Both the position numbers and the translations under genes were made by a program. The notes beneath the pieces were generated by a model, which was not told the DNA's origin, did no database searches, and saw nothing but the letters and a program-made list of their open reading frames with translations. 64,000 nt of DNA from Henckelia pumila (Eukaryota > Streptophyta > Magnoliopsida > Lamiales > Gesneriaceae). Shown one piece after another: positions 16,038 through 46,372 of this stretch (its first letter is position 1; each line of letters begins with the position of its first letter). The DNA lies in NCBI RefSeq assembly GCF_033568475.1, contig NC_133121.1, positions 3,844,001-3,908,000 on the forward strand, given 5' to 3'.

Positions 16038-17434
16038 TGAAGTTCTTGGCGGGTGTTGAGCCATGGCAGGATGAAGGGGTACGTATTTGCTATTTGTTGA
16101 GCTTTATTTTGCAGTTTACCGTGGCATTTAAGTTCATCCAGTTTAAAGATTGTGATAGACTTGAGTTCATGTTTGTCTGACGATGAGTTAAAATGCATCA
16201 TTTATGTTGTACATTCTCAGACCTGAAATCTGGGATAAGTGAGTGCAGGATGAGTGTGTGGGTTGCTTTAGTGAACATGTTTAGTCCAGGCACGGGTTGT
16301 AAGTTTATCTGAGGTATTGAAGTCATGCATTTGTGTAACATGATCATATGATCTGCGTTTCGGAGTGTAGTTGAATAGCCCGCACATTTCCAGTCGTGCA
16401 ATGCAAATGTTGTAGCATGAAAACTGTTGGTTTAGAAGACACTCTTCTTACCTATCTTTAGCAGCAACATTTCCTTGGCGAATATCATTTTGGAATAGTC
16501 GTTGGTTCTAGTCGAATACCATGTAGAAGCTAATCTTTTATCTTCTTTTTTTTTGCTGTGTATAAATATTTCTTCTCCAAAATTTTTCAAGATGCAGTTT
16601 TGGCCCTAAGCCGATTTGCAATATCGAGTTGCAGTGTGCTGAACGTAATCCGATTACCACAGTGAGTTAAAATTAAGGTTCGCGACGTTGCAACTGCAGA
16701 ATCGGATTAAAGATCACTGGTCTTGCCGAGATACAACATATATCCACCATTATATATGAGTTCAGTCACTCGTAGAAAGCTGGCCCGGAACTAACATACG
16801 GGATGTGCTGCATAAATGTGTTTGATCGCTCTTAAAGGGGTGCGTGTGTGTGTTTGTATTAAGGATTGGATTGTATTTATTTTCAATGATGGATTTCTTT
16901 AAAATTTTGATTGGAGTCGGTTTTGCAACCTTTTGAGTTGCATTTTGTGATCCATATTTCCAAGTATACGATGCTTTTTGTACGGTATCCTCTCCTGAAG
17001 TTTTACCATGTGCCACATTCTAATTATTCATTTATTTACTCTTAATAAGTATAAAAGAAATAAATTAAATGTATGTGATTGATATCGCTAGGTTTAATAT
17101 TTTATTAATACTAAAAAAATATATGTGAGTTGCATGTATTTATAATTTTATTTGATTAATACTTAAGTTATCAAAATTTAAAATGTTTATTTTTATTAAA
17201 ATCATGTGTTATATTTTTTTTGGCAGGTTTAAACTTCAGTTACTATGATTCAATATTTAATTAACATGTGAAGCATGAATATTACGTCTTTAACTTTTTT
17301 TATATATATATTTTCGGTTTTTGATCAACATTTTTTTGTAGTGATGTTATATGTTTATATCTTGAGTTTAATTTATTTTTTAAACTGACAACTTTAAATC
17401 ATTAACATATGTTGTATATTTATTGAAAAACGTA

Positions 17435-17462
<28 letters not shown>
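16038..17462. other. 3' flank of the F-box/kelch gene and intergenic DNA
   Basis: The first few hundred bases are moderately GC-balanced and probably include the 3' UTR. After about 17030 the sequence becomes AT-rich and ends in an (AT)n run (17434-17462). No gene is seen. Confidence 0.6.
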
Positions 17463-17467
<5 letters not shown>

Positions 17468-18462
17468 TGTTATTTACACTCCAAAAAATGTTAATAACAC
17501 TCCACTTTATTTATATAATTCTCTAATAGACAAGATTACCCCTAATTAATTATTTTCTCATATAATAAAATCTCTATTTACCTAAAAAAAACTCAAATTC
17601 AATCATTCTATTAACTAACTAGTAAGATTTTGATATCTACAAAATATGTCATTGTTTTCCTCGTATGCAAATAAAGTGCAAAATAACAAAAAAATATCTT
17701 TCTTAGTCTTAAATCTCAATTTATTCATATAATAAGTCAATATTTTGTAGGATATATATACAATGTTATTCAATTTTTTTATAAAATGCATAAAACTGGT
17801 GGGTTACAGAATTTTTATTTACCAATATTATGTTAAAGTGTTTGGGATAAAATGTAAATTTACATATATTAAAAATTAAGATTAAAAATAGGAATATATT
17901 TTATTATTTTAGAATAATTTTTGAAAACACATAATACTTTAGTGATTAAGAGCATAGTACTGTAAAGATATTGTGAGCTCTAGTAATTTTATATAAATTA
18001 ACACTAAATTTAAAATAAACTTACTATTAAATATTTTATTTTATTTTTGTTTAGGATAATGTTTCTTATAAAAATATATTAAAAATTCAAAATTTCATAA
18101 GATATTGTGATTAAATTAAAGTTTGAATTTTAAAATTACAATAAAAATTATTATGAAATAAATTATGAAAAACATAAGAATAAAATATAATTTTTTTCGA
18201 AAATTATAAATATAACATAACAATAACTGTTGTTTTAATCAATAAGTTTTTGAAAATTTGTTTGCATTCCGTATTTAAAAATATTGACATATATATAACT
18301 ATAATATATTGAGTTTTTAAAGTTTACAAAACTCACTTTAGGAATTAATGAGACTATTAAAGAATTTACTAAAATTGATTAAAGGGTAATATAGTCAACA
18401 TGTACTAAAAAGTAATAAATGGAGTGTGGTTAACAAAAAAATAGAGTGTAAACAACACTTCC
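17463..18462. mobile_element. 1000-bp non-autonomous inverted-repeat DNA element (Mutator-like MITE candidate)
   Basis: The left end GAGAGTGTTATTTACACTCC and the reverse complement of the right end, GGAAGTGTTGTTTACACTCT, form an inverted repeat that continues for about 80 bp with mismatches. The flanks are TATATATAT on both sides, consistent with a 9-bp target duplication but not provable, because the insertion lies in an AT microsatellite. There is no transposase; the core is AT-rich. Confidence 0.75.
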
Positions 18463-18899
18463 TATATATATATATGTAATAAACTGTAGAATCAAGTGAT
18501 TTGTGTATTATTAAAAGTTGTAGTTAATGATAACTGTGCAACTCAAATATTTTAAATTGTACAACAGTACAAACAAATACATGTTTCAATTGTTCAATTC
18601 AGGAGGACAATTATTACACTCAAACAATCATCTTATTCATTATTGTGTTTTCAATCAATGTGAATATAAACCATGACATTGACTTCGATATTAATTGTAT
18701 GACCGAACGCTTCTCGTTTTAACAAAATTTATAGTTAATGGTAACAATACTATTCAATTAATATTTTAAACAATACGTACAAAATCTCTAGCGTCATGAA
18801 TAATTTATGTTAAATTATATTTTTATTAATATTGATTTTAAGTAAAAAAATATTAATTTATTTCAGATAAATGATTTTCTTGATTCATTAACTTGTCCA

Positions 18900-19160
18900 A
18901 ATTTGAGTTTTAGTCCATTGAGTTGTCAAATTTGATTTTGGTGCACTAACATTTAATTTTTTACTATTGTTAGTCCAATTGTTGACGCGATATTTAATAA
19001 TTCAACAATTTTCGATCTCAACATTTTTTCGTCATGTCAGTAGTTTTTTTATATTACAAATCAGTATTTTCCAGTGTCACGTTACCAATTAGACCAATAA
19101 TTTATGAGAATTAAAATTTAGCGTACCAAAAACAAATTTTAAAAACTTAGTGGAACATAT
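18900..19160. mobile_element. foldback MITE-like repeat
   Basis: The left half reads CCATTGAGTTGTCAAATTTG... with GGTGCACTAACATTTAATT. The right half, reverse-complemented, reads CCACTAAGTTTTTAAAATTTG... with GGTACGCTAAATTTTAATT, so the two halves are long imperfect inverted repeats. The layout resembles the element at 43546-43847. No target duplication could be assigned. Confidence 0.45.
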
Positions 19161-21114
19161 CCTAAAAGTAAATAAGTTAGAACTTAGTGGATTTCTATGG
19201 TAAACCCCGATAATCATAAGATAATTGTTATAGCTTGACTTGCTTTGATTTTCAATTATCTTGGTCATACATAATAATATATATTCAAAATTTTCTTACG
19301 TATATTTTTCTATTTTATTGAAAAAATATATTTTTTTGCCTTCGATAATCTGTTTTAAATATACATTAGACAATAATTTAGTATAAAAAATAATCAATAT
19401 TCTAACAAAAAATATAGAAATAAAAATAATATTTTTATAATAAAAACTATGTGTTATAGTATATAGAAATATATACTAAGAGTATTTAATTCATTTATAC
19501 AAATAATTATTTCATTAATGATATATATATACATATTTTTTTATAAGTTTATCAAACTCTTGTTTTAAAAAATCTAACATATTAATATGTGGTAAATATT
19601 TTTTTCAAAAATCAAATTCATATAATGTGCAACGGTCAATCCAAACTTTTCTTTATAATTTTATTTGTTCAAATGTTGTAATATTTTGTTTTAAAACTCT
19701 TATAGAGTATTAATTTTAGTGGTACTGATAACATTATTTTAAATTATCTTTTTTTTTAATTCCTATTCGAGATTATAAGTATAGAAATAAATTATTTTTA
19801 ATTTTTCTATTGTTATCGCTAATAACATATTACTAATATTTTTTGAACCTCTAATCAAGTATATGAATATAATAATTTTATGTCATCTAATCTCATTCCC
19901 TCTAGTTTTTCAACAATTGTTTTATACGACAATGTCTTGATAAAATATTAATAAGTTTTCTGTTTAATTTCTTAAATAGTAATCCAATCGAGTTGTTTTA
20001 AATTTGATATACATATAAAGTACATGTTATTTTATATGGCATAAACAATATTTATATATGGAGTGTAATAATTAATTTATAATTTCTAAGAGTAGTATGT
20101 TAAATATATTATTTGAAAAAAAAAAACATGAGCAGATAAAAAAATGTGAAGAAAATATTTTTTTAGAAGATGAACAATTATATTTTAAACAAGTTAAATT
20201 TTTTATACTCAATATTTCAAGGATTTTTTTAGTAACTTTGATATAAGAATAAACTGTCTGACATAAAAATTGATTTGAGTGTAGTGTTTTTTTTAAAACT
20301 TTTTATCACGTAAATTTTTACGATTTCGTAATTATTAACATTAATTTATTATATTAGCCAAATATTTTATATTGTTGTACAAATATCAACATGGCTTAGT
20401 TATAATCATACTTTCTATATTTCGCTTATTTAAATTGCATTTATTTTTTTTTATCTTTCTCAATTATATAGTATAGTTTTCATATTACGCACTACTCTTT
20501 TACCAATTTATTTCTACTAAATTTATAAAATGTATAATTTTATTTTATTAAAATTTCGCTAAATTAGGGCAAAATGAGAAATTTATTTTTGCAAATACTT
20601 TTTTAATATAGATGTGAAAAAACACACAAGCCTAAATTAGTGTGACGAAATGAGCATTTTTTTTTTACCTTGGACAAGAAAATATCGATGTTGATTACAT
20701 TTGTAGTCCCTAAAATTTCAAAAATATTACACAATTAGTCGTCACCATTTGTTTTATAAATCTCTTCCTAAAACTGAAATATCAAAAAGTCTAGTTAGAT
20801 TATCAAATATCAAAAAAATAAGTGAATGATGGAATAAAGGATATGAGTACATTTTCTATATAAATGAAATCGTAACATGATTTCACTTGTCTTGAACATA
20901 ATGGTGAAATTTAATGGTTTGATTTAATTTTTGTACTTTTCTTAATTAAAATTTTAATAATCAAAATATTACGTTAAAAAATATAGTAAATTAAAAACGT
21001 AACTATGACGATAAAGTTGAAATAAGTCCAAAAATTTAATTTTTTTTTAAATTTATAGAGAAAAAATTAAGGTAGCTCTCAATAATTACTTTTTGTTTCC
21101 ATGTGTGTCACAAT

Positions 21115-21530
21115 ATAAATTTAGGACTTGAATTAAATATTAATAATTAATTTACCTTCAATAAATAAATGAACACACAAAATGATATGAATTAAATATT
21201 AACAGTTAATCTAACTCGAATAAATAAATTGACTATTAATCTATAAAATGACATGAAAAACCTTAAAAATTCTTGAAAATGACGAAAATATTAATTACTA
21301 AATGAAATAATGAGGAAAAAATTGTAAATTCATTACCAAAAATGTCAAAATATAGATTTAGGACATGAATTAAATATTAACAATTAATTTACCTTAGATA
21401 AATAAATGGAGACAAAAAATGATATGAATTAAATATTAAAAATTAATTGAATAAATAAATTGGCTAATGTATAAAATTAATGCAAGACCTTAAAAAACCT
21501 TGAAAATGACAAAAATATTAAAGATTAAAA
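21115..21530. repeat. degenerate tandem pair, unit about 230 bp
   Basis: Two successive blocks share TTTAGGAC(T/A)TGAATTAAAT, AATTAATTTACCTT, AATGATATGAATTAAATATT and a CCTTAAAAA...CTTGAAAATGAC ending. The second copy is shorter and diverged. Confidence 0.6.
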
Positions 21531-21735
21531 AATTATAAATTTACAATTAAAACCAAATAATTAATAAAATAATTATGATATTGAAGAAAATTCACAATTA
21601 AAACTTGTATATTTATATAGGTAATAGATATACTTTCTTCGTACATAGTCTTACTTTGTTTTTAACACAGATTAACGAAAAATTATCAAAAAAGTAAATT
21701 TTATATTAAAAAAAACGAGTATATTAGTAAAAGAG

Positions 21736-22365
21736 CAGGCCCGGCTCCACGGGGAGGCACCCTAGGCGTGTGACTAGGGCCTCCCTTTTGGTGGGGCCTC
21801 TAAATATTTTTTTTTATTTTTTATTGGTTTTTTATTTTAAAATCTTAGAAAAAGCCTCTTAATTATGTTGTTGAAAATTTGCACCGATTTTTTATTTTGT
21901 ATTTTTGCTTCTCCTTTCTTTGCTAAAAAAAAAACCATTTCTTCCTAAAAAAACTCTCCTTTCGATAAGTTGCTCTAATCATGTGAATTAGATTGCTCAA
22001 ATTGGTGCAACTATGATTTCGTTTTTTTTTATTGAATTTGTAATTTTTTTTGTTTGTTTGTTAGTTGTGGTTGATATTTTTATTTTTAATTGATCTGGTT
22101 TTTGGACTTTGGTCTCCGAAATTTTAAAATATTTTTGTAACTCGCTTATTCATCGGTTCTTATACTCATTTAGTTTATATATGTCATTTCTTATAATTTA
22201 TTAAATTTACTTATTATATTAGTTTATTAAATTAGATATAGATAATAATTATGTGAATTTATTTATAAGCTCGTATGTAATATTTTTATATTTAATAGAA
22301 AAATTTATATAAGACTTTTCCTTAAAAATTAGTCTAGGGTCTCCAAATTTCTGGAGACGGCACTG
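21736..22365. mobile_element. non-autonomous hAT element (630 bp)
   Basis: A perfect 8-bp target duplication TAAAAGAG flanks the element (21728-21735 and 22366-22373). The ends are imperfect inverted repeats: CAGGCCCGGCTCCA on the left and CAGTGCCGTCTCCA reading in from the right. An 8-bp duplication and CAG(G/T)-type ends are hAT hallmarks. The AT-rich interior has no transposase. It ends about 100 bp outside the large Mutator-like element. Confidence 0.88.
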
Positions 22366-22470
22366 TAAAAGAGTGTAAAAAAATTACTAAATATGATATA
22401 TAACTATATATTTGGAACAAAAAAAAAAAGAAACGTGAATTATATAATTGGAACTGAGTGAATAACATAA

Positions 22471-22638
22471 CGGCAAATGATAAATAAATCTCTATCATCA
22501 AACTTATATTTGTCCTCAGTCTCCATGTCAGCAAATATTTGTTCTCACTCCCTGACAAAGTTCTGACATTTGTTTCAACTTTCTATTTGAGCACAAAATA
22601 CAAAAATGCCCTCACTTTCTTTTGAAACCCAATAATAC
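22471..22638. repeat. MULE left terminal inverted repeat, outer piece
   Basis: The outer 168 bp of the left arm match the reverse complement of about 40235-40402, including GTCAGCAAATATTTGTTCTC, GCATTTGTTTCAACT-like and TTGAGCACAAAATAC segments. It ends at the insertion point of the LTR element; the last five bases AATAC are that element's target duplication. Confidence 0.88.
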
Positions 22639-25301
22639 TGTAACACCCGATATTTTTAAATACGTAAATCCGCCTGCATAATTAGGATATTTAATTATTT
22701 AAATTTATGATTTATGGGTTAAATAATTATGTGAAATATTTATGCATGATTTAATTTATTTTTAAGCATTTAACCCATAATTAGTAATTTTTATGATTTT
22801 TAGTATTTTTATTATTTGATCGCGTAGACGGGGCCGTGGACGGACGAGATGACGACTTTCCACCCAAATTATTTTATGAGCCTTTTTGGAGCCTTAAAAT
22901 ATTATTTTGAGCTTTATTATCTCAAAATTTTAAGTATTTAATTTTATTTAATTTTAGGGGTCATTTTTATCCAAAATTAGTCAAAATATTGACTTTTTAA
23001 TATTTTTAAAATTCCCCTAAACTAATATTTCGAGATTTATTTTATGTTTCAGATTTTTAAAGATTTCTTTTAGAGTTTTAGTTAAGTTATATTTTATATA
23101 TATATATTATATCCTTAATTATATATTTAATTACCCTATTTTCTAATAAACTAAAACCTAAACCTATCCCTACCTCCCACGTTTTCTTCCACTCAGCCGA
23201 CACCCACCTCCATCTTCTTCTTCTCCATCTAGCCGTGACCCAGGGAAGCCATAGCCAAGAGTTTCGAAGCTCCAAAAGCCCGTATTTTCGTCCCGTCGTC
23301 CCGGAACCGTCCCACGCTCGTGTTTCCTCGTCATCTACGGTGAAAGGCATGATTTCTTCTCGATTTTTCTTTATCATATCAGTATATATTACGTCGGCTA
23401 CGTAGACATCGAAATCCTTTCAATATTTTTCAGAAAATCGATTGAATGTTGTTGGTTGTGCTTTGTTCTTCGAATTCATAGCATGCTCACGTTTTCTTTC
23501 TCTCTATGCATGTTTCGGCTGATGGCTAGGTCTCCAGGGGTGTGGGTACGTGGTCTGGGCTCGAGTGGCTCGAGGGGTTCGAGCCAAACGAGCCCAGGTG
23601 GTCACCTTTTCAACCAAGTGCACGGCCGAGACAGTCTAGGGTTTGGAGATGTAGGGCTTCGGCTCGACGGTTGGACGTGCATGGGGTCGGACCTCCGAGC
23701 AGGTTAGGTCCGGCAGGACCTTGGGAGGGTCCTGCAGGCGGTGGTCCGGCCAGTGGTGGCCGGACTGGCGCGGCAGCAGCCCTCGAAGGGCTGCTGCACG
23801 CAGCCGAGGGAAATTGGGAGAGGGGGGCCATCGGGTTGGGCTGGGTTTAGGGGCCTGGGTCGGGTCTGGGTGTCCGGGTTGGGTCGGATAGGTCTAGGAT
23901 CGGGTCAGGTGGTTCGGGTCCGGGTTTGGTGGGCCGGGCTCGAGTCTTTTTATTTTTAAAATATTTTAAGAATTATTGGGTTTTTGAGTCAATTTAATTG
24001 AAATAAAATTATTTGGACTCCCAAATAATTTTATTTGAACTTTTAAAATTTTAATTAAGTTAGCCCATTAATTTTATGGGCTTTTGGGCCCATAAAAGTT
24101 AATGGGCCAGTCTTTGGGTTTTTGGGCCCATTGGGCCAGTTTAAGTGTTATTGGGCTTAGTGTAATTTTAATGGGCTTAATTGATTTAATTGGGCTTAGA
24201 TTAATTAATTGGGCTTAAAGTTTAAGATATTGGGCTTAAGTATGTTAATGGGCCAGATTTAAGTTAATGGGCTTGCATGTCTAGGGCCAGCAGTCGAATC
24301 AAACCATGAGAAATTGCATGTGTCCTGAGTTTATATTTAATTATTTTATGGATGAAAAGTTATTTGAATATTTATATGATATTAGAAAATAAATTAAATA
24401 TAAATGAAGGACACACAATTTATTTAAGTACATGCATTCACGAAATCAATTTTTATGCTATGATTGAAATTTTATGGTTGAGCAAATAAAATATTTTAGG
24501 TGGAAATTGAAGTAGTGTGGCCATTTATGGGCAGTTTTCTGCCATTTATGTATGGGCAGTTTCTGCCATTTATGTATGGGTGGTTCGCCACCAGCCTCGT
24601 ACGATGGTTTCTTAGACTGATCAGTCGCACTATAAGTATGGGTCACACTTACGGATAGGACCATTCGATGTTAAGAAAATAAGTGCTCAACAACTCAGGT
24701 ATGTATGATACTATGTATGTTATGTATTATGTTTATTTAAGTAAGTTATGTTATGTAATTTTAAGCATGCTCATTCATGTATATGTATGTATTAGTATTA
24801 AATGGATTTAAATTATTTTAAACCCTTGTTAGTATGCATGTTGGGCCTCTAGGCTCACTACACTGATATGGTGCAGGTGAGTACGTAGAGGAGCAGGTTA
24901 CTCCTACCGGTGGTGAGGATGTATGAGCAGCGCTGCAGTAGCCCCGTGACCGTGACAGCTTCTGAGTCACCATGCTTGAGTCTTTTGATACATTTTATTA
25001 TTTTTAAGGGTTGAGGTGTTTGGAATATTTTATTAAATATTTTAGTGCATGCACACTTTTTATTTATTTTATTTATGCAGTATATTTTTAATTCTTAGGG
25101 TTGACTCAGATGTTTAATTATTTTTAAATCATGCATTTTCTTAAGTATTTAATTGTTTATTTATTTAGTCATGTATTTATTTTAAATATTTTATTCTGTG
25201 CATATATGTATGGGCATATATGTACATATATTTATTTAGTAGTATATTAAAAAAAAAAAAATTTCCGCATATTTATTTATTATAGAGTTAGGGTCGTTTC
25301 A
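22639..25301 (+). repeat. left LTR of the nested chromovirus
   Basis: 2663 bp, TG...CA. Features include a GC-rich central block with a GCAGCAGCCC...GGGCTGCTGC inverted repeat (about 23772-23796), a run of TTGGGCTTA/TGGGCC repeats (about 24060-24280), and a CTGATATGGTGCAG segment near 24863. It is almost identical to 28993-31654. Small open frames inside it are not genes. Confidence 0.95.
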
Positions 25302-25599
25302 GTTGGTATCAGAGCACGGTCCTCGGAGGGGTCCTCACTGCTATGCGAGCTCAGAAATCCACGCTACCGGTCTGTAAGTTTTAAATGTTTATAGTATGAT
25401 TTAATTTCTAGAATTTAAGTTAGCCTTAATTTCAAACACTTAGTTATGCATGGCGATTTACGTAAAGAAATATGGGGTGATGCAATATGCCTCGGAGACG
25501 AGTAGTCCTTAGGTGTGAAATTGGGTAAATTAAGATTTTGGTGCAGCTACTTGGAAATATTTTCTGCATGCAGGGAGAATTCTAGTTGGAGGCAACTCC

Positions 25600-28500
25600 A
25601 CGTTTGCGTTGCTAGATTCAGGAGCCACGCATTCGTTTATCTCCCGAGATTTTATCAGACGGATAGGCATTTCACCGGAGGTTGTAGACAGTGGTTACGA
25701 TGTTACCATGCCATCCGGACAGATTATCACTACCACTAGTGTCATCAGGGATCTGGCATTGGAGTTGCAGGGACACTCCATTCGAGCAGATCTAGTGGTT
25801 CTTCCATTGACTGGGTTTGACTTGATTTTGGGTATGGACTGGCTATCAGTTAATGGAGCTTCGATTGATTTCCGATGTAGGACAGTGTCAGTGAAGCCAG
25901 CAGGGGGTGAGATGTTTACTTTCTTTGCATCTCAGTCTAGCAGTATTCCTCAGATGATATCACATGTTCGTGCGAGGAAACTGTTGCGCAATGGATGTCA
26001 GGGTTTTCTTGCTAGTATGGTCACTACCTCAGATGTTTCTAGCAGATCTTTATCAGATATAGAGGTGGTACGTGACTATCCAGATGTTTTTCCTGACGAT
26101 GTTGCAGGAGTTCCACCAGTGAGAGAGGTGGAGTTCGGTATTGAGTTGTTGCCGGATACTGTGCCTATCTCTAAGGCACCGTATCGACTTGCTCCTACAG
26201 AGATGAGAGAGTTGAAGGAGCAGATTCAGGAGCTGTTGGAGAAGGGCTTTGTTCGTCCTAGTTTTTCTCCATGGGGAGCTCCAGTGTTGTTTGTGAAGAA
26301 GAAGGACGGCAGCATGAGATTGTGCATCGACTACCGAGAGCTCAACAGAGGCACAGTGAAGAATAAGTATCCACTACCGAGGATAGAGGATTTATTCGAT
26401 CAGTTGCAGGGAGCTTCGGTATTCTCCAAGATCGATCTGCGATCTGGTTACCATCAGCTGAGAGTCAGAGAGTCAGACGTGTCTAAGACTGCCTTTAGGA
26501 CACAGTATGGGCACTATGAGTTCTTGGTGATGCCCTTTGGGTTAACCAATGCTCCAGCAGTTTTTATGGATCTCATGCATCGTGTTTTCCAGCCGTATCT
26601 AGATCAGTTTGTCATTGTATTCATTGATGACATATTGATCTACTCGAGGAGTATTGAAGAGCATACACAGCATTTGCATACAGCCTTGCAGACTTTAAGG
26701 GAGCATCGACTGTTTGCAAAGTTCAGTAAGTGTGAGTTTTGGTTGGAGCAGGTGGCGTTTCTAGGCCACATTATTTCTAGAGATGGGATTGCAGTGGATC
26801 AGTCCAAGGTGCAGGCAGTGAGAGATTGGGGGATTCCAAAGAATGCTTCGGAGATTCGTAGCTTCTTGGGTTTAGCAGGATACTATAGGAAGTTCATCAA
26901 GGGTTTTTCCTCTATTGCAGTACCCTTGACTTCCTTGACCAAGAAGAACGCGAAGTATAGTTGGAGTCCAGATTGTCAGAGGAGCTTTGATCAGCTGAAG
27001 GATGCACTTACTTCAGCACCTGTGTTAGCTATGACAGTGCCACATGAGGAGTTAGTGGTGTACACCGACGCGTCCAAGCTTGGTTTGGGCGCAGTACTTA
27101 TGCAGAGTGGCAGAGTTATAGCATATGCGTCGCGACAGTTGAAGATTCATGAGCAGAACTATCCGACGCATGATTTGGAGCTTGCAGCAGTGGTATTTGC
27201 GTTGAAAATCTGGAGGCACTATCTTTACGGCGAGAAGTGCAAGATTTTCACCGACCACAAGAGCCTCAAGTACTTCTTCACCCAGAAGGAGTTGAACATG
27301 AGGCAGCGCAGATGGCTTGAGCTTGTTAAGGACTATGACTGTGACATTAGCTACCATCCGGGTAAGGCTAATGTAGTGGCAGATGCTTTGAGTCGAAAGT
27401 CGTCAGTGGTATCATGTTTGACTGCACAGTTACCACTACAGACCGAGATTCAGAGGTTTGGGTTGGAGTGCTATCCGAGCGGCCATGCACCGAGCTTGTC
27501 AGTGTTGACGGTGCAGCCGGTTTTGAGAGATCGGATTAGAGAGGGACAGTCCACTGATGAGGAGCTACAGTGATGGAGACAGAGAGATGAGGCCAGAGGT
27601 AGTCTCTTGTATACAGTGGAGGATGGCATCGTTCAGTACCGTGGGAGGATGTGGGTACCGAACGTTGATCAGTTGAGAGCCGAGATTCTAGCAGAGGCTC
27701 ATGCATCTCCGTATTCCATTCACCCCGGAAGTACGAAGATGTACCGAGACTTACAGTTATTGTATTGGTGGCTTGGGATGAAGAGTGACATCGGGAGAGT
27801 GGTGTCAGAGTGCTTGACTTGTCAACAAGTCAAAGCAGAGCATCAGCGTCCAGCAGGACTTCTTAGACCTCTCCCTATTCCGGAATGGAAGTGGGAGAAT
27901 ATTACGATGGACTTTGTAGTTGGCTTACCGAGGAGTATCCGAGGGTGTACAGCGATTTGGGTGATTGTGGATAGACTCACCAAGTCAGCTCATTTCTTGC
28001 CGGTAAGGACTACTTACACTTTGACACAGTATGCAGAGCTTTACATCAGAGAGATTGTTAGACTGCATGGCATACCAGTGTCTATCGTATCAGACAGAGA
28101 TCCGAGGTTCACTTCAGCGTTTTGGAAGAGTCTGCACACAGCTTTGGGGACTAGACTCTTGTTCAGTACAGCTTTTCACCCCCAGACAGATGGTCAGTCC
28201 GAGAGAGTGATCCAGGTTCTCGAGGATCTTCTGAGAGCTTGTGTCATCGATTTTCGAGGATCTTGGGAGACTAGACTGCCATTAGTGGAGTTTACCTATA
28301 ACAACAGCTTTCAGTCGTCTATAGGTATGGCTCCATATGCAGCACTTTATGGGAGGAGATGCAGATCTCCGGTGCATTGGGATGAGGTTGGTGAGCGGAT
28401 TTTGTTGGGTCCAGAGATTGTGCAGCAGACAGCTGACATCGTGACGCAGATTCGAGATAGGATGAGGACTGCGCAGAGTCGGTAGAAGAGTTATGCAGAT

Positions 28501-28950
28501 GCCAGACGACGCGATTTGGAGTTCGCAGTAGGTGATCACGTATTCTTGAAGGTGTCACCTATGAAGGGAGTAGCGCGTTTCGGACGGAGAGGCAAGCTTA
28601 ATCCGAGATATATAGGGTCATTCGAGATCTTGGAGCGAGTTGGCACGTTGGCCTATCGTTTAGCTCTACCTCCAGGGCTAGCGGCAGTGCACAACGTTTT
28701 CCATGTGTCCATGCTTCGGAGATATGTCTCCAATCCGTCGCATGTGTTGGATTTCGAGCCCTTACAGTTGCCACCAGATCTTGTGTACGAGGAGAGACCA
28801 GTGCGGATCTTGGCTAGAGAGGAGCGGAGGCTTAGGACGCGGGTCATACCGATGGTCAGAGTCCAGTGGCTGAATCACTCGGAGGAGGAAGCTACTTGGG
28901 AGACCGAGGAGGATATGAGAACTCGCTACCCGGAGTTGTTCGGGTAAGTA
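25600..28950 (+). other. pol region of the nested chromovirus fossil
   Basis: Approximate domain positions: aspartic protease 25600-25880 ([10 protein letters not shown] motif), reverse transcriptase 26210-26720 (YRELN, FSKIDL and FIDDIL motifs), RNase H 27050-27400 ([10 protein letters not shown]), integrase 27640-28360 (zinc-binding H...H...C..C start, then a DDE core with IVSDRDPRF) and a chromodomain-like end 28700-28945. These place it with Ty3/gypsy chromoviruses. It is listed as one fossil region; no intact protein is claimed. Confidence 0.93.
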
Positions 28951-28992
28951 CTTTAATTTCGAGGACGAAATTCAATTTAAGGGGGGGAGAAT

Positions 28993-31654
28993 TGTAACAC
29001 CCGGTATTTTTAAATACGTAAATCCGCCTGCATAATTAGGATATTTAATTATTTAAATTTATGATTTATGGGTTAAATAATTATGTGAAATATTTATGCA
29101 TGATTTAATTTATTTTTAAGCATTTAACCCATAATTAGTAATTTTTATGATTTTTAGTATTTTTATTATTTGATCGCGTAGACGGGGCCGTGGACGGACG
29201 AGATGACGACTTTCCACCCAAATTATTTTATGAGCCTTTTTGGAGCCTTAAAATATTATTTTGAGCTTTATTATCTCAAAATTTTAAGTATTTAATTTTA
29301 TTTAATTTTAGGGGTCATTTTTATCCAAAATTAGTCAAAATATTGACTTTTTAATATTTTTAAAATTCCCCTAAACTAATATTTCGAGATTTATTTTATG
29401 TTTCAGATTTTTAAAGATTTCTTTTAGAGTTTTAGTTAAGTTATATTTTATATATATATTATATCCTTAATTATATATTTAATTACCCTATTTTCTAATA
29501 AACTAAAACCTAAACCTATCCCTACCTCCCACGTTTTCTTCCACTCAGCCGACACCCACCTCCATCTTCTTCTTCTCCATCTAGCCGTGACCCAGGGAAG
29601 CCATAGCCAAGAGTTTCGAAGCTCCAAAAGCCCGTATTTTCGTCCCGTCGTCCCGGAACCGTCCCACGCTCGTGTTTCCTCGTCATCTACGGTGAAAGGC
29701 ATGATTTCTTCTCGATTTTTCTTTATCATATCAGTATATATTACGTCGGCTACGTAGACATCGAAATCCTTTCAATATTTTTCAGAAAATCGATTGAATG
29801 TTGTTGGTTGTGCTTTGTTCTTCGAATTCATAGCATGCTCACGTTTTCTTTCTCTCTATGCATGTTTCGGCTGATGGCTAGGTCTCCAGGGGTGTGGGTA
29901 CGTGGTCTGGGCTCGAGTGGCTCGAGGGGTTCGAGCCAAACGAGCCCAGGTGATCACCTTTTCAACCAAGTGCACGGCCGAGACAGTCTAGGGTTTGGAG
30001 ATGTAGGGCTTCGGCTCGACGGTTGGACGTGCATGGGGTCGGACCTCCGAGCAGGTTAGGTCCGGCAGGACCTTGGGAGGGTCCTGCCGGCGGTGGTCCG
30101 GCCAGTGGTGGCCGGACTGGCGCGGCAGCAGCCCTCGAAGGGCTGCTGCACGCAGCCGAGGGAAATTGGGAGAGGGGGGCCATCGGGTTGGGCTGGGTTT
30201 AGGGGCCTGGGTCGGGTCTGGGTGTCCGGGTTGGGTCGGATAGGTCTAGGGTCGGGTCAGGTGGTTCGGGTCCGGGTTTGGTGGGCCGGGCTCGAGTCTT
30301 TTTATTTTTAAAATATTTTAAGAATTATTGGGTTTTTGAGTCAATTTAATTGAAATAAAATTATTTGGACTCCCAAATAATTTTATTTGAACTTTTAAAA
30401 TTTTAATTAAGTTAGCCCATTAATTTTATGGGCTTTTGGGCCCATAAAAGTTAATGGGCCAGTCTTTGGGTTTTTGGGCCCATTGGGCCAGTTTAAGTGT
30501 TATTGGGCTTAGTGTAATTTTAATGGGCTTAATTGATTTAATTGGGCTTAGATTAATTAATTGGGCTTAAAGTTTAAGATATTGGGCTTAAGTATGTTAA
30601 TGGGCCAGATTTAAGTTAATGGGCTTGCATGTCTAGGGCCAGCAGTCGAATCAAACCATGAGAAATTGCATGTGTCCTGAGTTTATATTTAATTATTTTA
30701 TGCATGAAAAGTTATTTGAATATTTATATGATATTAGAAAATAAATTAAATATAAATGAAGGACACATAATTTATTTAAGTACATGCATTCACGAAATCA
30801 ATTTTTATGCTATGATTGAAATTTTATGGTTGAGCAAATAAAATATTTTAGGTGGAAATTGAAGTAGTGTGGCCATTTATGGGCAGTTTTCTGCCATTTA
30901 TGTATGGGCAGTTTCTGCCATTTATGTATGGGTGGTTCGCCACCAGCCTCATACGATGGTTTCTTAGACTGATCAGTCGCACTATAAGTATGGGTCACAC
31001 TTACGGATAGGACCATTCGATGTTAAGAAAATAAGTGCTCAACAACTCAGGTATGTATGATACTATGTATGTTATGTATTATGTTTATTTAAGTAAGTTA
31101 TGTTATGTAATTTTAAGCATGCTCATTCATGTATATGTATGTATTAGTATTAAATGGATTTAAATTATTTTAAACCCTTGTTAGTATGCATGTTGGGCCT
31201 CTAGGCTCACTACACTGATATGGTGCAGGTGAGTACGTAGAGGAGCAGGTTACTCCTACCGGTGGTGAGGATGTATGAGCAGCGCTGCAGTAGCCCCGTG
31301 ACCGTGACAGCTTCTGAGTCACCATGCTTGAGTCTTTTGATACATTTTATTATTTTTAAGGGTTGAGGTGTTTGGAATATTTTATTAAATATTTTAGTGC
31401 ATGCACACTTTTTATTTATTTTATTTATGCAGTATATTTTTAATTCTTAGGGTTGACTCAGATGTTTAATTATTTTTAAATCATGCATTTTCTTAAGTAT
31501 TTAATTGTTTATTTATTTAGTCATGTATTTATTTTAAATATTTTATTCTGTGCATATATGTATGGGCATATATGTACATATATTTATTTAGTAGTATATT
31601 AAAAAAAAAAAAAAATTCCGCATATTTATTTATTATAGAGTTAGGGTCGTTTCA
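28993..31654 (+). repeat. right LTR of the nested chromovirus
   Basis: 2662 bp, TG...CA, preceded by a G-rich polypurine tract at about 28978-28990 and followed by the 5-bp duplication AATAC. It differs from the left LTR by only a handful of bases. Confidence 0.95.
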
Positions 31655-32499
31655 AATACCCCTCACTCTTTAAAAAAAAATAAAAATTACTTATAAGGAA
31701 GACAACGTACAATTTCTTTCCCTAATTCTTGTTGAAATTCTCCACAAATTTATCCATCAATCGTAAACGACTAATCCACCGATCGCAATATTGCAGATCT
31801 GCTTCGAATCGGATTGAAGAAAGTTGCTAATCGTTGTAAATTGTTTCTGGACCATGAAAATCTTTTTGAAGAACATTATTTCAAAGATTTTAAGGTAATA
31901 TTTTAGGTTTTTAAAAATTTGCAGCCAAGAAATTGCATTATAGTGTTTGATGTAGTGTAATTATTTTTATATATCCTTTTTAATTGAACGATTTTTGAGA
32001 TTTGTTATGATTTTAGTGATTCTATTAAATTTTTGTGTCATCGTGTGAATTGTAGATATTTTTTTTTATCAATCTCTGGTTTTTCCGTATATGGGTGGGA
32101 ATGAATCTCATTTATTGGAATTTCGAGATAGAGTAACTGAAATTCCTTGTTGTTCTCGAATATAACGATTTAATTCCGAATCATAATGATTTTAGTGCTT
32201 CATTATGACCTAGATATTGATAATTTTTTATCATTAAAATAAAAATGGGTTGCTTGATTTTTTTATTGTGCACTGTTTTTTTGTATGTCATGTGTTATAC
32301 GAATGAATATATGATTTTCAATTTAGATATTATTGTATTGAATGTAGTTTTTTTTAATAGTTTGATAATGAAATCTAGAAGTGATTCTTGTGATTTTTTT
32401 TTTTTGGTTATTACAAGTAAAATAAACAGATTTTTGTGATTTAAATCTTCATTGGATGTAGCTTGATGGATATTTTTGTGAGTCTAAGAACAATGTGAC
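31655..32499. repeat. MULE left terminal inverted repeat, inner piece
   Basis: This resumes the left arm after the LTR insertion. It matches the reverse complement of about 39403-40235, including GATCGCAATATTGCAGATCT, CTGGACCATGAAAATCTTTT and GATAATGAAATCTAGAAG. Arm similarity fades near 32499. Both arms are visibly diverged, so the MULE is clearly older than the LTR insertion. Confidence 0.88.
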
Positions 32500-32539
32500 G
32501 AATTTGTTTGAACTCCCCAATTGAGGTGAAATTATGAAA

Positions 32540-33310
32540 TTACCCTGACATAATATGAAGACTCACTAATACAGTAATATCCATTGACCAATAAATATTT
32601 ATTTAATAGCTCTTCTACTCTCTTTTGAATCCAACGTTTTCCCAATTTGTCTTCTACTTGAATCCTTCATTGACGGCTAAATCAACGACGATCAATATAT
32701 TTGTGTCGATATTTCGTGTGACAACTGAGGCGAAAAGAGTTTAAAGCTAAGAATCGTTAGATTTTGAAAATCTTTTCGAAGAACCAACATCGAAACAACA
32801 AGTTGAAGGGAGATTTTTTTTTTGAAAATTTAAGAAATTTTTAGATGCAATTCCATCTGGATGATTGAGTTTTTTTTTTCTTTTCTAATTGAGTGATTCT
32901 TTGAGTGTTTTGTATGTTGTGTTGTGGTTATGTTGAAGTTTCGTACATAGCGTGAATTATACAAATTTGATGGACAACTTTTAAATTTTACATATATAAG
33001 TGGGTTTGTGATTCATCTCAACCAACTGTGTATTGATTATCTAAAATTTGTCATTATTCTCGATTATATTGATTTCATTGTCAATTTTCATCGTTTAGTA
33101 CTGGATTATAAATATTATGTGGATATTCCTTGTAATATCCAAATCAGCTGCCTAAAAGTTTAATCTTGTTATTATTTTTGTTGTTGTGGAATGTGTTATG
33201 AATAAAGCCCCGATCTTTATTTTTTAGTTTTATTGTATTGAATGTTATGCTTGTTATTGATTGGGTTGAGAATGAAATCTATAAATGGTCGTAGGTGAAG
33301 ACGGATGTGA
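32540..33310. repeat. diverged second copy of the MULE arm interior (tentative)
   Basis: Segments run in the same order as in the adjacent arm: CTTCTACTTGAATCCTTCAT, GAATCGTTAGATTTTGAAAA, TCTTTTCGAAGAACC, TTCTCGATTATATTGATTTC, ATGTGTTATGAATAAAG-like and GAGAATGAAATCTATAAATG. This looks like an old tandem duplication of the arm inside the element. Confidence 0.4.
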
Positions 33311-34680
33311 AACCGATAAAAAGTTTGGAGGTTTTTTAAAAAAAATATGTTTTCATCTTGGAAATCGATTAAATATCATTTTTCCACAAATATTTGAAGG
33401 TTTCTGCGTTTTGGTGTTGATTTTTGGTGTATTTTTTTTTTTTTTTTTGTAATTCTCGATTGTGTCATTTTGTCCCAAATTTGTAGTGTTCTAGTATTGA
33501 TTGTGGTCACTCTCTTGTTTAAATTATTTATTTGTTTCCTTTGATTAATTGTTCAAAATTGTTGAATGATTATGCAGAAGTTCGTAAATTTTGTTTTAAA
33601 TGCTTGACTTTGATTTTGTTATCAAAAATTGCGAGTGTTTATTATTTAGTTTGATAAAAACATACTCATTTATTTATTTTGTTGTCACAGTGAATTTTTT
33701 ACTCTAAATCCTTCAATTGTATTTTAAGGTTCATAAATTATTTTTTAGTTATTTATTTTCATGTGTTTATCTCTATTTTTATGTTTTTGTTCTTGAATTT
33801 GTTATATGATTTCTGTTTATATTTTTGGTTGCTTCATTGGAATAATTATTAATTTGAAATGATTAAGTGATTATGGTAAATCCAATTTAATTTTCTTAAA
33901 CTTTATTTTGGTTCTTCAATTTTTTTGAATCTGTTTGTTAATGTATTTTGTGATTTCATTAGAGTAGCCCGCAAAAGAAATGAGGACAAATAAAAAGACG
34001 GTGAAGATGCACACTAATCGAACTTGTGTTGCTGCGAGTATGTTATATGAAGAAATGACTATATTATCTGTTGAACATGGATCGCTGAAAAATAATTTTG
34101 AGTTATTTTTATTATATGGTTATGTTTTTGAGGTTGATGTAATTATGACAATAATTAATTAGTAGAAAGACATGTTATAAACTCAAGGTGATTCAATATG
34201 TTATATAAGCTTCAGTGAAATCAATTTTTAAGTGTGTTCTGTATTTCTGGTACAAAAATTAAAGATAACAGTACATAATTTATATAATTTGGCATAGTTA
34301 TTCGTCTTTCTAGGTTGATAAATTGTTTTACTAAGATTGAATATGTCAACCAAATAAAAATTTTTTATGATCGAATATATATATATATATATATATTATG
34401 ATGAAATATATAAATATATATTCGAGTAATCTTACTAAGAAGAACATGTCAACCAACAAAAATAAATTAGGTTCGAATAATTCTTCTGAATTTGGAATAA
34501 ATCAAAATTAATTTGGAACAATCTCGGAATCACCATCCAATTACTTGAGTGTTGGTCATCTTATGTCATGTGTAATATTTTAGAAAATATATAAGAGAAT
34601 ACATCCTTTTCATTATTCGATGAGATCATGTGTAACAATATTATTCATTGCTCAATATTTACAATTACGTGATTAGAAGT
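33311..34680. other. MULE interior, no recognised content
   Basis: AT-rich internal sequence with one 60-codon open frame (33980-34162) starting MRTNKKTVKMHTNRTC. It matches no family I recognise and may be a captured or degraded fragment. An (AT)n run lies at about 34376-34396. Confidence 0.4.
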
Positions 34681-35432
34681 AAGTGGACCATTAGAATCAC
34701 ACTCTCTAGTTAAAGTGACTTTGGATCAAAATTTCATGTATTAGCTAGGAACAATCTCAGAATTATGCAGAATATTATTTTTGATTTGCGGAACAAGAAG
34801 ACATGTTCATGTTAACATGCACCAATATCCTATAATACACTGCATGACACAAGTGAGGATGAGTTTTCAATCCCTAGAGATTGATAGAACCATCACTCAA
34901 GTATTTGTCTAGTAATGTGTCTTGCCCTACTCTTGTCTAAGTTGTAGGATAAAGACATTGATCATGACCCAATGAGAGCACCATTTGTGGATGTCCATTG
35001 CCATCCAATGTAAACAATAGGAGTATATTTTCAAAAATTCAAACTCTTAACTTGTTTAATATGATGTTTTCTCATTTATAGGGACTATCATTTACTCTAA
35101 TTCCACTCATATTTGAGAACACGTGAGTGCGAGATCGAGCACAACTAGTACGCATAGATGAGATAAATATTATTGAATCGCGAACAATGTGTTCCGATTT
35201 TAGGACAAACATTGTGGGTCATGAGGATCATACTCTCCTAGTTAAAAAGGCTTTGGATCAAAATGTCATGTATTAGGAACAATCTCAGACTTATGCAGAA
35301 TAATATTTTTGATTTGCGGAACAAGAAGACATGTCCATGTTAACATGCATCAATATCCTATAATACACTGCATGACACAAGTGGATAGGAGTTTTCAATC
35401 CCTAGAGATTGGTAGAACCATCACCCAAATGT

Positions 35433-36520
35433 AATGGTGTTCATATTTTGGATAAAACAAAAAAAACCGGAAATCCAAACCGAAAAAGTCAAAGAACGAA
35501 TCGAAAACCGAATTTTGTAATTCGGATATAAATATCAAAACCAAAGTTTATTTGGTTCGGTTTTGGATTATATATGTAACGACCAACTGTATCAAGACGG
35601 GTCTTTCCAGCATGCTTATGTTCTCACTCACACGCACCCTGAGAAACTTCCCAGGGGGTCACCCATCCTATAATTGCCCCAATTCAAGCACGCTTAACTT
35701 TGGAGTTCTTATGTGATGAGCTCCCGAAAAGAAGATACACCTTCTTGATATGAATAGTACATATGAAATCTTTTAAGCTCTCCTCAACCATGTAGTCTCA
35801 TACCTACATAGTCTCAGAATCCCTCTCATTCCGGCACGGGATCGGTTCATTCATGTCTTCCTCCGCCTAGAAGCCTACCAGAAGCTGCTCAGACCAAAAA
35901 AATCGAAATTAAATTAAATTAATAATTTTATTTATATTTTTTATTTATATTATATATGTTATGAGATGATATTTAGTGAATGAATAATCATTTTGAATAA
36001 TTTTTAGTTGATTGTTATTTATTTAATTCATTCTTGTTGTTTATGTAATTTTGAGTTGATTCTTGTTTATGTAAGTTATTTAAACTTTATTTTTAAAGTT
36101 TTTACTAAGAAATCATGTAAAAAAACATATTATATTTTACAATAAAGTTATATTATTAATTTAAACGTATCAAAATTTTTTTTGCTTTTTTGAAAATATT
36201 ATAACATTATGGTTGGATATTTATCTTTGTATTGTTTGATGTTTTTTTATTTCTTCACTGTATGACTATAATTTTAAGTTGTGTATTGGGGTATTTAAAT
36301 TACATGTTGGATGAAATTTATTTTTCTTTTATTGTGTTATGTATTATTAATGATAAAACCGATAAAACCGAACCGTATAAACCGGTCCGTTATAGTATAA
36401 AAACCAAACCGAACCGAAGTAAAACGGTTTGACTTCGGATTGTATTTTTCATAAACCAAAAATCGGAAAATCGAACCGAAATTAGACAAATTCAAACCGA
36501 ATCGACCGATGAACACCCCT
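35433..36520. mobile_element. inverted-repeat DNA transposon inserted in the tandem array
   Basis: It lies within one array unit and is flanked by a perfect 10-bp direct repeat ACCCAAATGT (35423-35432, 36521-36530). The ends are short inverted repeats: AATGGTGTTCAT on the left and AGGGGTGTTCAT reading in from the right. The interior is rich in AACCGAACCGAA-type runs common in plant non-autonomous elements. A 9-10 bp duplication suggests a Mutator-type superfamily, but this is uncertain. A Cassandra-like LTR is nested inside. No transposase was seen. Confidence 0.75.
35575..35891 (-). mobile_element. Cassandra-like TRIM LTR with embedded 5S rRNA-derived sequence
   Basis: On the minus strand this 317-bp piece runs TGAGCAGC...CGTTACA. 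About 35630-35720 carries a 5S rRNA-like segment with the internal promoter blocks: AAGTTAAGCGTGCTTG (A box), GGATGGGTGACC and CCTGGGAAGT (C box). A 5S segment inside an LTR is the defining feature of Cassandra terminal-repeat retrotransposons in miniature. Only one LTR-like unit is seen. I found no flanking duplication, so the exact ends are uncertain. Confidence 0.75.
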
Positions 36521-38039
36521 ACCCAAATGTTTGTCTAGTAATGTGTCTTGCCCCACTCTTGTCTAAGGTGTATGAGGAAGACATTGATCATGACCCAATA
36601 AGAGCACCATTTGTGGATGTCCATTGCCATCCAATGTATACAATAGAGGTATATTTTCCAAAATCCAAACTCTTAACTTGTTTAATATGATGTTTTCTCA
36701 TCTTTGAGGACTATCATTTACTCTAATTCCACTCATCTTTCAGAATATGTGAGTGCGAGATCGAGAACAACTAGTACGCATAGATGGAATAAATATTATT
36801 GAATCAAAAACAATGTGTTTCGATTGTAGGACAAACATTGTGGGTCATGACTCATGAGGATCAAACTATCCAAGTTAAAGTGGCTTTGGATCAAAATGTC
36901 ATGTATTAGGAACAATCTCAGACTTATGCAGAATAATATTTTTGATTTGCGGAACAAGAAGACATGACCATGTTAATATGCACCAATATCCTATAATACA
37001 CTGCATGACACAAGTGGAGAGAAGTTTTCAATCTCTAGAGATTGGTAGAACCATCACCCAAGTGTTTGTCTAGTAATGTGTCTTGTCCCACTCTTGTCTA
37101 AGGTGTATGAGGAAGACATTGATCATGACCCAATGAGAGCAACATTTGTGGATGTCCATTGCCACCCAATGTATACAATAGGGGTATATTTTCCAAAATC
37201 CAAACTCTTATTTTGTTTAATATAATTTTTTCTGATCATCTTTGAGGACTATCATTTACTCTAATTCCACTCATATTTTCAGAACATGTGAGTGCGAGAT
37301 CGAGCACAACTAGTACGCATAGATGAAATAAATATTATTGAATCGAGAACAATGTGTTACGATTGTAGGACAAACATTATGGGTCATGAGAATCATACTC
37401 TCCTAATTAAAGTGGATTTGGATCAAAATATCATGTATTAGGAACAATCTCAGATTTATGCAGAATAATATTTTTGATTTGAGGAACAAGAAGACATGTC
37501 CATGTTAACATGCACCAATATCCTATAATACACTGCATGACACAAGTGGAGCAGAGTTTCCAGTCCCTAAAGATTGGTAGAACCATCACCCAAGTGTTTG
37601 TCTAGTAATGTGTCTTGCCCCACTCTTGTCTAAGGTGTAGGAGGAAGACATTGATCATGACCCAATAAGAGCACCATTTTTGGATGTCCATTGTCACCCA
37701 ATGTATATAATAGGGGTATATTTTTCAAAATACAAACTCTTAACTTGTTTAATATGATGTTTTCTCATCTTTGAGGACTATCATTTACTCTAATTTTACT
37801 CATCTTTCAGAACATGTGAGTGCGAGATCGAGCACAACTAGTACGCAGAGATGAGATAAATATTATTGAATCGAGAAAAATGTTTTCCGCTTGTAGGACA
37901 AACATTGTAGGTTATGAGGATCACACTCTCCTAGTAGACATTGACCAATCAAAGAGTACAAATATGTCTCAATTGAGCACACAACGTTTACCTCTTTGGA
38001 TAAATTTTGGGCCACTATGATCGACGTTCCCAAGATATT

Positions 38040-38310
38040 AAATTAGTTTCAATTGCCTTGATTCGGGATAATTTCAAATATATTTGAAACAGTCTCGGAT
38101 ATTTGCGGGATAAGCAGACAAAAAATTTGGAATGTGAGATATTCATTCTTTGCAAATGCACAAACTTTGTCAAATATATGAGACGCATGCATTGTCTTTG
38201 ATTTGGGATAATTTCAAATATATTTGAAATAATTTCAGACTTTTTTGGAATAAACAAATAGACAATTGAGAATGAAATATTCAATTTTTAGGCAATATGA
38301 TGCACTTTTA
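38040..38310. repeat. short diverged tandem pair in the MULE interior
   Basis: Two copies about 130 bp apart share TTGATT(C/T)GGGATAATTTCAA, ATATATTTGAAA and a GAATG(T/A)(G/A)A(G/A)ATATTCA block. No coding content is seen. Confidence 0.55.
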
Positions 38311-38879
38311 TGACTCGTTCATTTGAGGCATTATGAAACTCACTTTTTTGGTAATGTATGATTCAAATTCCCGAATTTAATTGAGTTAATTGAATATGTT
38401 GATTTTTTTATGTTGTAACGTGTAAAGTTCTAGGATATAAAGACAGAGATCAGTCGCACAAATGTTAATATGTAGTACTCATGGTACGTACATAAAATAC
38501 AAAATGACTATCTGATTTATGATCATAAAATTATATTTTACCCTCACAATAAAACAAAAAGTAATATCATTATGACCTGCCCTGCTCACTACATAAAAAA
38601 TATGTCTTAATCATAAATCAAACATTGATTGCGCCTCAAATCATAAATCAAACATTGAAATTTAAATAAAAACTAAATTAAACAAAGAACATATTTAATA
38701 AATTAACACTGAAAGTACTCATCATTCAAATGTCTATCATCATCTTTAAACACAAAAATAAGTTCCGACCAAACAACTTTTAAATAAACTATGACTTACA
38801 AACCAACTTCACACGATACGACAACACAAGAGAACCCAATACATAAGAGTACACTACAATCAGAAGTCAAATTAATATA

Positions 38880-39361
38880 AAACAATAGTGTGTTCCAGAG
38901 AATCATCAAATCAAGCGTAAACCAACAATGCTTCCACTGGAACAAGCATATCTCCTCGAAGGTCCGTGCTCGAGCCAACTTTCATAACCGCTTTCTCCTA
39001 TGTAAGTGTAAAGATGGAGCATACGTTGCTTTCTTGATTATGGAAGCCCAATATTTTTTGTTATGTAGACGGTAACTTCTCAACACCTAAATAAAAACAA
39101 AATAATTTACATTTAGCTTAAAAAGATAAAATCGTGTATGAAAATTTTAATAAAAGTAGAGAATAATAAATAATTTAGTATTATTAGCTTCACAAAATTA
39201 TCTACTAAATGTTGCAAACAATAAGCATGATGAGTCCCCATAAATATTCGTTTAGCTGCCTTGATAATCTCAAGATGTCTATCCGAGAAAAAAATGAACT
39301 CGTCGAATAGAGTGCATTGATATGAAAGTAGAATACTTCTCAAACTGTAGTGGAGATACAT
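38880..39361 (-). pseudogene. MULE transposase remnant
   Basis: On the minus strand, 39361-39113 encodes FFSDRHLEIIKAAKRIF and then HHAYCLQHLVDNFVK. This matches the plant MULE transposase core around the second catalytic aspartate (SDRH) and its C..H motif (YCLQH). Further along the minus strand, about 39040-38880, KKATYAPSLH- and LARARTFEE-like pieces look like a degraded continuation in other frames. The N-terminal part, including the first catalytic aspartate, would fall where the right terminal repeat begins and is absent. This is a remnant that supports the Mutator assignment, not a working gene. Confidence 0.75.
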
Positions 39362-39402
39362 ATAAAAAAATCATGGTTTCTAATGAAATTTCAGCACATT
39401 GT

Positions 39403-40402
39403 TCTCAGGATCACAAAAATATTCATCAAGCTACATCCAATGAAGATTGAAATCACAAAAATCTGTATTTTTACTTGTAGCAACCAAAAAAGAAGATATT
39501 ACAAGAATCGCTTCTAGATTTCATTATCAAACTGTTAAAAAAACTACATTCAATATAATAAGATCTAAATTGAAAATCATATATTCATTCGTATAACACA
39601 TGCCATACAAAAAAACAGTACACAATAACAAATTCAAGTAGCCCATTTTTATTTTAATGATAAAAAAATCATCAATATCTAAGTCATAATGCAGCACTAA
39701 AACATTATGGTTCGGAATTATATCGTTATAATCGAGAACAACAATAAATTTCAGTTACTCTATCTCAAAATTCCAATAAATGAGATTCATTCTCACCCAC
39801 AGACGGGAAAACTAGATATTGATAAAAAAAACTCTGTACAATTCACACGATAACACAAAAATTTAATACAATCACTAAAACCATAACAAATCTCAAAGAA
39901 TCGTTCAATTAAAAAGGATATATAAAAATAATTACACTACATCAAACACAGTAATGCAATTTTTTGGCTGCAAATTTTTAAAAACCTAAAATATTACCTT
40001 AAAATCTTTGAAATAATGGTTCTTCAAAAAGATTTTCATGGTCCAGAAACAATTCACAACGATTAGCAATTTTCTTTAATCTGATTCGAAGCAGATCTGC
40101 AATATTGCGATCGATGGATTAGTCGTTTACGATTGATGGATAAATTTGTGGAGAATTTCAACAAGAATGAGGGAAATAAACTGTACGTTGTCTTCCTTAT
40201 AAGTAATTTTTATTTTATTTTTAAAGAGTGAGAGGTATTATTGGATTTCAAAAGAAAGTAAGGGAATTTTCGTATTTTGTGCTCAAATAGGGAGTTGAAA
40301 CAAATGCCAGAACTTTTTCAGGGAGTGAGAACAAATATTTGCTGACATGGGGACTGGGGGCAAAAATAAGTTTGCTCATGGGGATTTATTGATCATTTTC
40401 CC
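39403..40402. repeat. MULE right terminal inverted repeat
   Basis: About 1000 bp, inverted relative to 22471-22638 plus 31660-32499. It carries the intact counterpart of the LTR insertion site: the reverse complement of about 40225-40245 reads across CCCAATAATAC-like sequence with no interruption. Confidence 0.88.
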
Positions 40403-40954
40403 ATAACATAATTATATATTAAATAAATATACTTACGAAATTTGCACACATTTATTTTGGGTAAGTTAGTAAGGATGTTCAAATTTTTCGGATGAAGTCG
40501 AACTCAAAGGAAGTTGAGCCAAAAGTGCTAGAATTTTTTTTTTATCTTCGAATTCGAATGGAAATCAGGCTCGAATAAGAATCCGGACCTTGAAATTTTT
40601 ATGACATTCAGCTTGATTTTCGTGTGTATACATACATATTAAATTAAAAATGCTTCTACGGTGTTGGATTATGTCAATATTTTTAAAAAAATAATTTCTC
40701 CTTTAGAAACATTTTGTTCGTTTCTTGTCAATGGTTTTCCGGTTTTTTTTTTTAAAGCACATGTACACTCTTGATTTAGATTACAAAGATATAAAGTAAT
40801 TATTCGCACTACAGACGGAACTTGAGCATGAACTCGAGAAATACTTATCTCGTGCGTGCAAAAAAATTACAAATAAAATTTTTAAACATACTTAAATAAA
40901 TTTTAAAAATTATCCACAACAAGCAGAAATCGATCCTAAATCCGGTTAAGTCGA

Positions 40955-46295: not shown

Positions 46296-46372
46296 GTCCA
46301 AGTTGGTGGAGTAGGTGAACTCTTGGCCAGAGGTCAAGAGTTCGATTTTTCCTGTCAACAATTTTTTGGACT
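46296..46372 (+). mobile_element. tRNA-derived SINE head
   Basis: A box A-like TGGTGGAGTAGG (46304-46315) and a box B-like GAGTTCGATTT (46338-46348) at tRNA-like spacing form a Pol III promoter head. The sequence does not fold as a complete tRNA, so it is read as a SINE. The body continues into the minisatellite that follows. Confidence 0.6.

Follow-up and report, generated by a model that had tools for sequence, protein, structure and literature searches.

The window, i.e. the whole stretch of 64,000 nucleotides analysed here, carries frames with F-box/Kelch, mitochondrial pyruvate carrier, OTU, NF-Y-type and mTERF domains, and with retrotransposon gag. Because of this domain content, it was taken as plant DNA. 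At positions 22471-40402 lies a segment of 17,932 bp bounded by two long inverted arms, the left one of which is discontinuous. Elsewhere in the window, overlapping direct repeats that are about 76-81% alike cluster at 46371-46700. A perfect 48-bp self-complementary stretch, which may be a simple AT run, occurs at 5481-5528 in a very AT-rich region (18.6% GC at 4001-6000).

Terminal arms and target site duplication

The initial annotation had proposed terminal repeats of about 1 kb, and an arm-to-arm alignment as the way to check them. This alignment was performed. The right arm, 1008 bp long, occupies the minus strand at 39395-40402 and reaches 8 bp further inward than previously noted. The left arm is on the plus strand and consists of an outer piece of 168 bp at 22471-22638 and an inner piece at 31660-32497. 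When aligned with the reverse complement of the right arm, the outer piece was identical at 149 of 167 positions (89%), and the stretch 31660-32499 at 767 of 825 alignment columns (93%). We then joined 22471-22638 to 31660-32497 and aligned the resulting 1006 bp with the reverse complement of 39395-40402. In this whole-arm comparison 930 of the 1003 aligned columns were identical, with 8 single-base gaps, and the local score was 834, whereas none of 200 dinucleotide shuffles scored above 29. The K2P distance between the two outer arms is 0.077. Both arms are long and highly similar, as are the terminal inverted repeats of TIR-MULEs.

Immediately outside both arms we found the same 9-bp word, ATAACATAA, at 22462-22470 on the left and at 40403-40411 on the right. 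The two copies form a perfect direct repeat, as the initial annotation had claimed, and their length falls within the 9-11 bp of the target site duplications of TIR-MULEs. The likeness between the arms ends at this repeat, and the terminal base itself differs between the two arms (C/G). The word occurs four times on the plus strand and twice on the minus strand of the window, so that its position is what counts; from the base composition of the window, we calculated a chance of about 1e-5 for an exact 9-bp identity at both junctions.

When the whole window was compared with itself at E <= 1e-10, no further copy of the arms was detected. With a more sensitive search, the DNA of the window outside the element yielded three weak rows, the best with E = 3.6e-4. 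An exact 24-base arm pattern gave no match in viral_contigs or in genome_contigs, neither of which is meant for plants, so that this result is uninformative there.

A short repeat, 85.6% alike and inverted, is shared by 22377-22464 and 58984-59072; on the left, it ends within the target site of the MULE. This repeat is possibly a MITE that served as the insertion site. Comparison of the joined flanks with the copy at 58984-59072, a candidate empty site, gave 89 matches out of 114, but only about 12 out of 20 to the right of the junction as counted by eye.

Insertions, repeats and a putative transposase remnant inside the element

The two pieces of the left arm are separated by an LTR retrotransposon of 9,016 bp on the plus strand (22639-31654), of Ty3/gypsy type according to its domain order. 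Its LTRs, of 2663 bp at 22639-25301 and 2662 bp at 28993-31654, are identical at 2653 of 2661 aligned columns. The 5-bp motif AATAC, which makes up the last five bases of the outer arm piece (22634-22638), is repeated directly after the insertion at 31655-31659, and the right arm is uninterrupted at the corresponding site. The initial annotation was thus right that a 9-kb LTR element cuts the left arm in two. Subtracting the insertion and its duplication (17,932 - 9,016 - 5) leaves 8,911 bp, in agreement with the length of about 8.9 kb proposed for the element before nesting.

The 5′ LTR is followed by a primer site, TGGTATCAGAGC, which we take to be of initiator-Met type. The pol region lies at 25534-28944 as three open pieces of one frame, split by in-frame stops. 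RVP_2, RVT_1, RT_RNaseH, Integrase_H2C2, SH3_Tf2-1 and Chromo domains scored above their Pfam cut-offs, and the integrase core (rve) scored below its own. Only about 230 bp separate the 5′ LTR from the protease frame, which is too little for gag; gag is therefore missing. The retrotransposon may have been mobilised with the aid of relatives, or may have lost gag since. A relative of this element, 83-90% alike in stretches, runs toward the start of the window on the minus strand at 1-3615; its frame at 2-733 encodes gag (Retrotrans_gag, E=1.7e-17).

Between the arms, self-matches delimited about four tandem units of approximately 533 bp at 34683-37935, one of them interrupted by a hAT-like element. 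Three units could be aligned, with a mean column identity of 91%. No unit contains a long reading frame or matches a family above its cut-off. The idea that the units represent a gene was rejected, the longest stop-to-stop frame in 32500-39394 being of 90 amino acids.

The interrupting element is 1,090 bp long (35432-36521). Its ends, TAATGGTGTTCAT and TAGGGGTGTTCAT, differ at 2 of 13 positions, and it is flanked by an 8-bp duplication, CCCAAATG, at 35424-35431 and 36522-36529. Two other tandem units show the empty site, which reads CCCAAGTG, one base off. We take an 8-bp duplication together with short inverted ends to be the marks of a non-autonomous hAT element. In six frames of 34684-36521, no transposase family was matched with Pfam. 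Judged from these ends, 35432-36521 is hAT-like, that is, it resembles non-autonomous hAT elements, and no more is claimed.

Within the hAT-like element, on the minus strand, a segment at 35631-35740 resembles 5S rRNA (RF00001, 21.7 bits for a gathering score of 38, E=0.43). This segment perhaps derives from a putative Cassandra-type LTR. Cassandra TRIM retrotransposons, as far as they are described in the accounts drawn on here, likewise contain a 5S-rRNA-like segment; here, however, that segment sits inside a nested hAT-like element, and its match is below the Rfam gathering score. At the gathering threshold, Rfam returned no match in the whole window. A snoR4 match at 38107-38185 (30.5 bits as compared to a threshold of 60) was taken as chance.

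The initial annotation also reported an internal transposase remnant. To look for coding remains, six frames of 32498-39394 were scanned as 25 frames, with stops coded as X, against 24,736 Pfam models. A minus-strand frame of 85 codons, located about 100 bp inward of the right arm and reading inward, matched the MULE transposase family PF10551 at 39197-39295, with E=0.0011 and 19.8 bits, below the cut-off of 27.6. The match covers profile positions 67-99 of 99; in the longer X-coded frame, the same family was found with E=0.01. By our own arithmetic, 25 scans would yield about 1e-5 chance matches to PF10551 at E <= 0.01. Taken by itself, this match is weak. In its favour, the family had been named before the scan, and the match lies where a gene driven from the arm should lie and runs the way such a gene should run. 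A probable remnant is present, as claimed, but as a sub-threshold match.

One family taken as chance came close in strength, namely GDH2_N, with E=0.0033 for a stretch of 12 residues. PQ-loop (0.046 and 0.052), Arm_3 (0.063), MmeI_TRD (0.064) and Tcell_CD4_C (0.071) also remained below their cut-offs and were likewise taken as chance. With Pfam, no DNA-binding N-terminus, SWIM finger or other transposase domain was found in the six frames of 32498-39394. No solved structure matched the transposase frame at E <= 1. Control scanning of six frames of 17000-21951 gave no family at E <= 5, a limit at which HMMER drops most matches above 0.1. By eye, and with no support from the tools, a stretch on the minus strand at about 38990-39090 looked MULE-like and may be a second transposase-like segment following a possible intron. 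Gene capture of the Pack-MULE kind was rejected, the six frames of 32498-39394 having given PF10551 and matches below cut-off, a scan by which host fragments devoid of Pfam domains would be missed.

The degenerate third arm

Immediately inward of the left arm and in the same orientation, a degenerate third copy of the arm was found on the plus strand at 32502-33284. It matches arm positions 98-891, with 497 of 757 aligned bases identical (66%) and 63 gap columns; an inner repeat similar to the outer ones over at least 100 bp is what defines an extra TIR. A separate search returned it over 853 columns, of which 514 were identical (E=6e-45). Its alignment score was 114 with the right arm, as compared to a maximum of 28 among shuffled sequences (n=200), and 102 with the left arm, where the maximum of 200 shuffles was 29. 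When the right arm was compared 198 times with parts of the window beyond the element, the score never exceeded 30. No mirror copy was found on the right side, the scores there being 18 and 20 for shuffled means of 18.4 and 19.7.

The outer 97 bp or so are missing from the third copy. It therefore carries no end of its own, and hence none able to carry a duplication. In a three-way alignment with 801 ungapped columns, all three arms agree at 450 columns, and the third copy alone differs at 298. Only the left arm differs at 20 columns, only the right arm at 17, and all three differ from one another at 16. The third copy is thus about equally far from both outer arms, and therefore split off well before these parted.

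Two origins have to be weighed. Most likely, the third copy arose when the element's own arm was duplicated in tandem, and the outer pair was homogenised later. Nearly as likely, at somewhat under even odds, it belongs to a separate, related MULE that was inserted or captured. The equal distance to both outer arms (298 columns as compared to 20 and 17) fits such a capture; however, later homogenisation of the outer arms would produce the same pattern. A capture is also disfavoured by the position of the third copy, which adjoins the left arm with no change of orientation and without the outer 97 bp or so. We further consider it possible, though rather unlikely, that the element is a three-armed MULE whose inner arm is an older relic and whose outer arms subsequently became alike through conversion, gap repair or the gain of new ends.

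Probable identity and proposed history of the element

The arms, their flanking 9-bp repeat and the PF10551 match lead us to identify the element, with a probability of about 0.9, as a defective plant Mutator-like element (TIR-MULE) that measured 8.9 kb before the LTR insertion and is probably a deletion derivative. With plant TIR-MULEs it shares the 9-bp duplication, the long and similar inverted arms, and, putatively, a MULE transposase remnant reading inward from one arm. It differs from them in its arms of about 1 kb, as compared to a typical 100-500 bp in the parts of PMC3310237 on which we draw, and in a transposase that is almost gone. As to a MURA-like transposase, the evidence is the match to positions 67-99 of 99 of PF10551, with E=0.0011 but below the cut-off; a chance family reached 0.0033 in the X-coded frames, and no other MULE domain was found there. 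The interpretation as a MULE given in the initial annotation was supported: the 9-bp duplication, the arms of about 1 kb, the split left arm, the LTR insert and the length of 8.9 kb were all found where it had placed them, and the transposase remnant was found as a sub-threshold match.

Two other readings of the whole locus deserve mention. That the arms do not bound a single element, and instead represent an inverted duplication or the ends of two separate MULEs that share 9 bp by chance, would accord with a transposase that is nearly gone and represented by a single weak match; we hold this to be very unlikely, as the 9-bp repeat lies exactly at both arm ends (chance of about 1e-5), the likeness of the arms stops at this repeat, and the remnant reads inward from one arm. 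Also very unlikely is a DNA transposon of another superfamily with long arms (e.g. hAT, with an 8-bp duplication). In its favour, a duplication of 8 bp can be mistaken for one of 9 bp, and PF10551 matched below its cut-off. Against it, the 9-bp repeat is perfect, the sole transposase family matched in the interior frames scanned is that of MULEs, and the arm ends are unlike those of the nested hAT-like element.

The TIR-MULE would have arrived by transposase-driven insertion of the MURA type, with a staggered cut of 9 bp, as the 9-bp duplication suggests. Its arms of about 1 kb would carry transposase binding sites and a promoter, as do the arms of maize Mutator according to the same parts of PMC3310237. 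An internal deletion would then have removed most of the transposase gene. On the right side, the gene would be recognisable only from the end of the catalytic domain, located some 100 bp inward of the arm, where the match is weak. Having no intact transposase frame, the element is most likely immobile.

On the left side, the older and degenerate arm copy that directly follows the arm gives the element a likeness to MULEs with one additional, solo TIR. Such MULEs are known in tomato, rice and maize, and in tomato another copy exists for only 1 of 12 distinct solo-TIR elements, as reported in the sections of PMC3310237 used here. With the solo-TIR MULEs described there (Ferguson & Jiang 2012), our element shares an extra arm inside one arm only and the outer 9-bp duplication, and with their type 6 the broken remains of a transposase. 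Our element differs from those, which were selected with RepeatMasker-based filters, in an inner arm of only 66% identity over aligned bases and in the absence of the outer 97 bp or so of that arm. In these sections, the origin of the extra TIR is left open between slippage, recombination, a nested insertion losing its duplication, and acquisition.

The order of events can be proposed from sequence divergence and from nesting. The third arm would have split off first (260 of 757 aligned bases differ), and the outer arms would have parted later (K2P distance of 0.077). The tandem units of about 533 bp have diverged about as much as the outer arms, and divergence gives them no order relative to these. 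The interior tandem repeats would have been followed by the hAT-like insertion into one unit; the hAT-like element is younger than the array because it interrupts that unit. The insertion of the LTR retrotransposon of about 9 kb into the left arm would be the most recent step, this element being the youngest by divergence, with 0.003 (8 of 2661 columns) between its LTRs as compared to 0.077 between the arms.

Nested insertions in MULEs and MULEs with an extra TIR are already in print (PMC3903597, PMC3310237; both as far as the portions used here extend). Nested insertions are common in coding MULEs of maize and rice, where more than one third of the candidates carry them, according to the part of PMC3903597 on which we rely. 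The coding MULEs considered there resemble our element in combining a defective transposase with nested insertions, LTR retrotransposons among them; the present LTR element differs in that it sits in an arm.

The locus is one more degenerate plant MULE, of little import beyond annotation, for which the family would help to annotate the source genome. Its value is that of a layered record, in which an old arm copy, outer arms, tandem repeats, a hAT-like insertion and an LTR insertion can be told apart. It also adds one case bearing on how extra MULE arms arise, the point left open in the sections of PMC3310237 used here. If the three-armed reading were true, the element would record the replacement of transposon ends while the body persisted.
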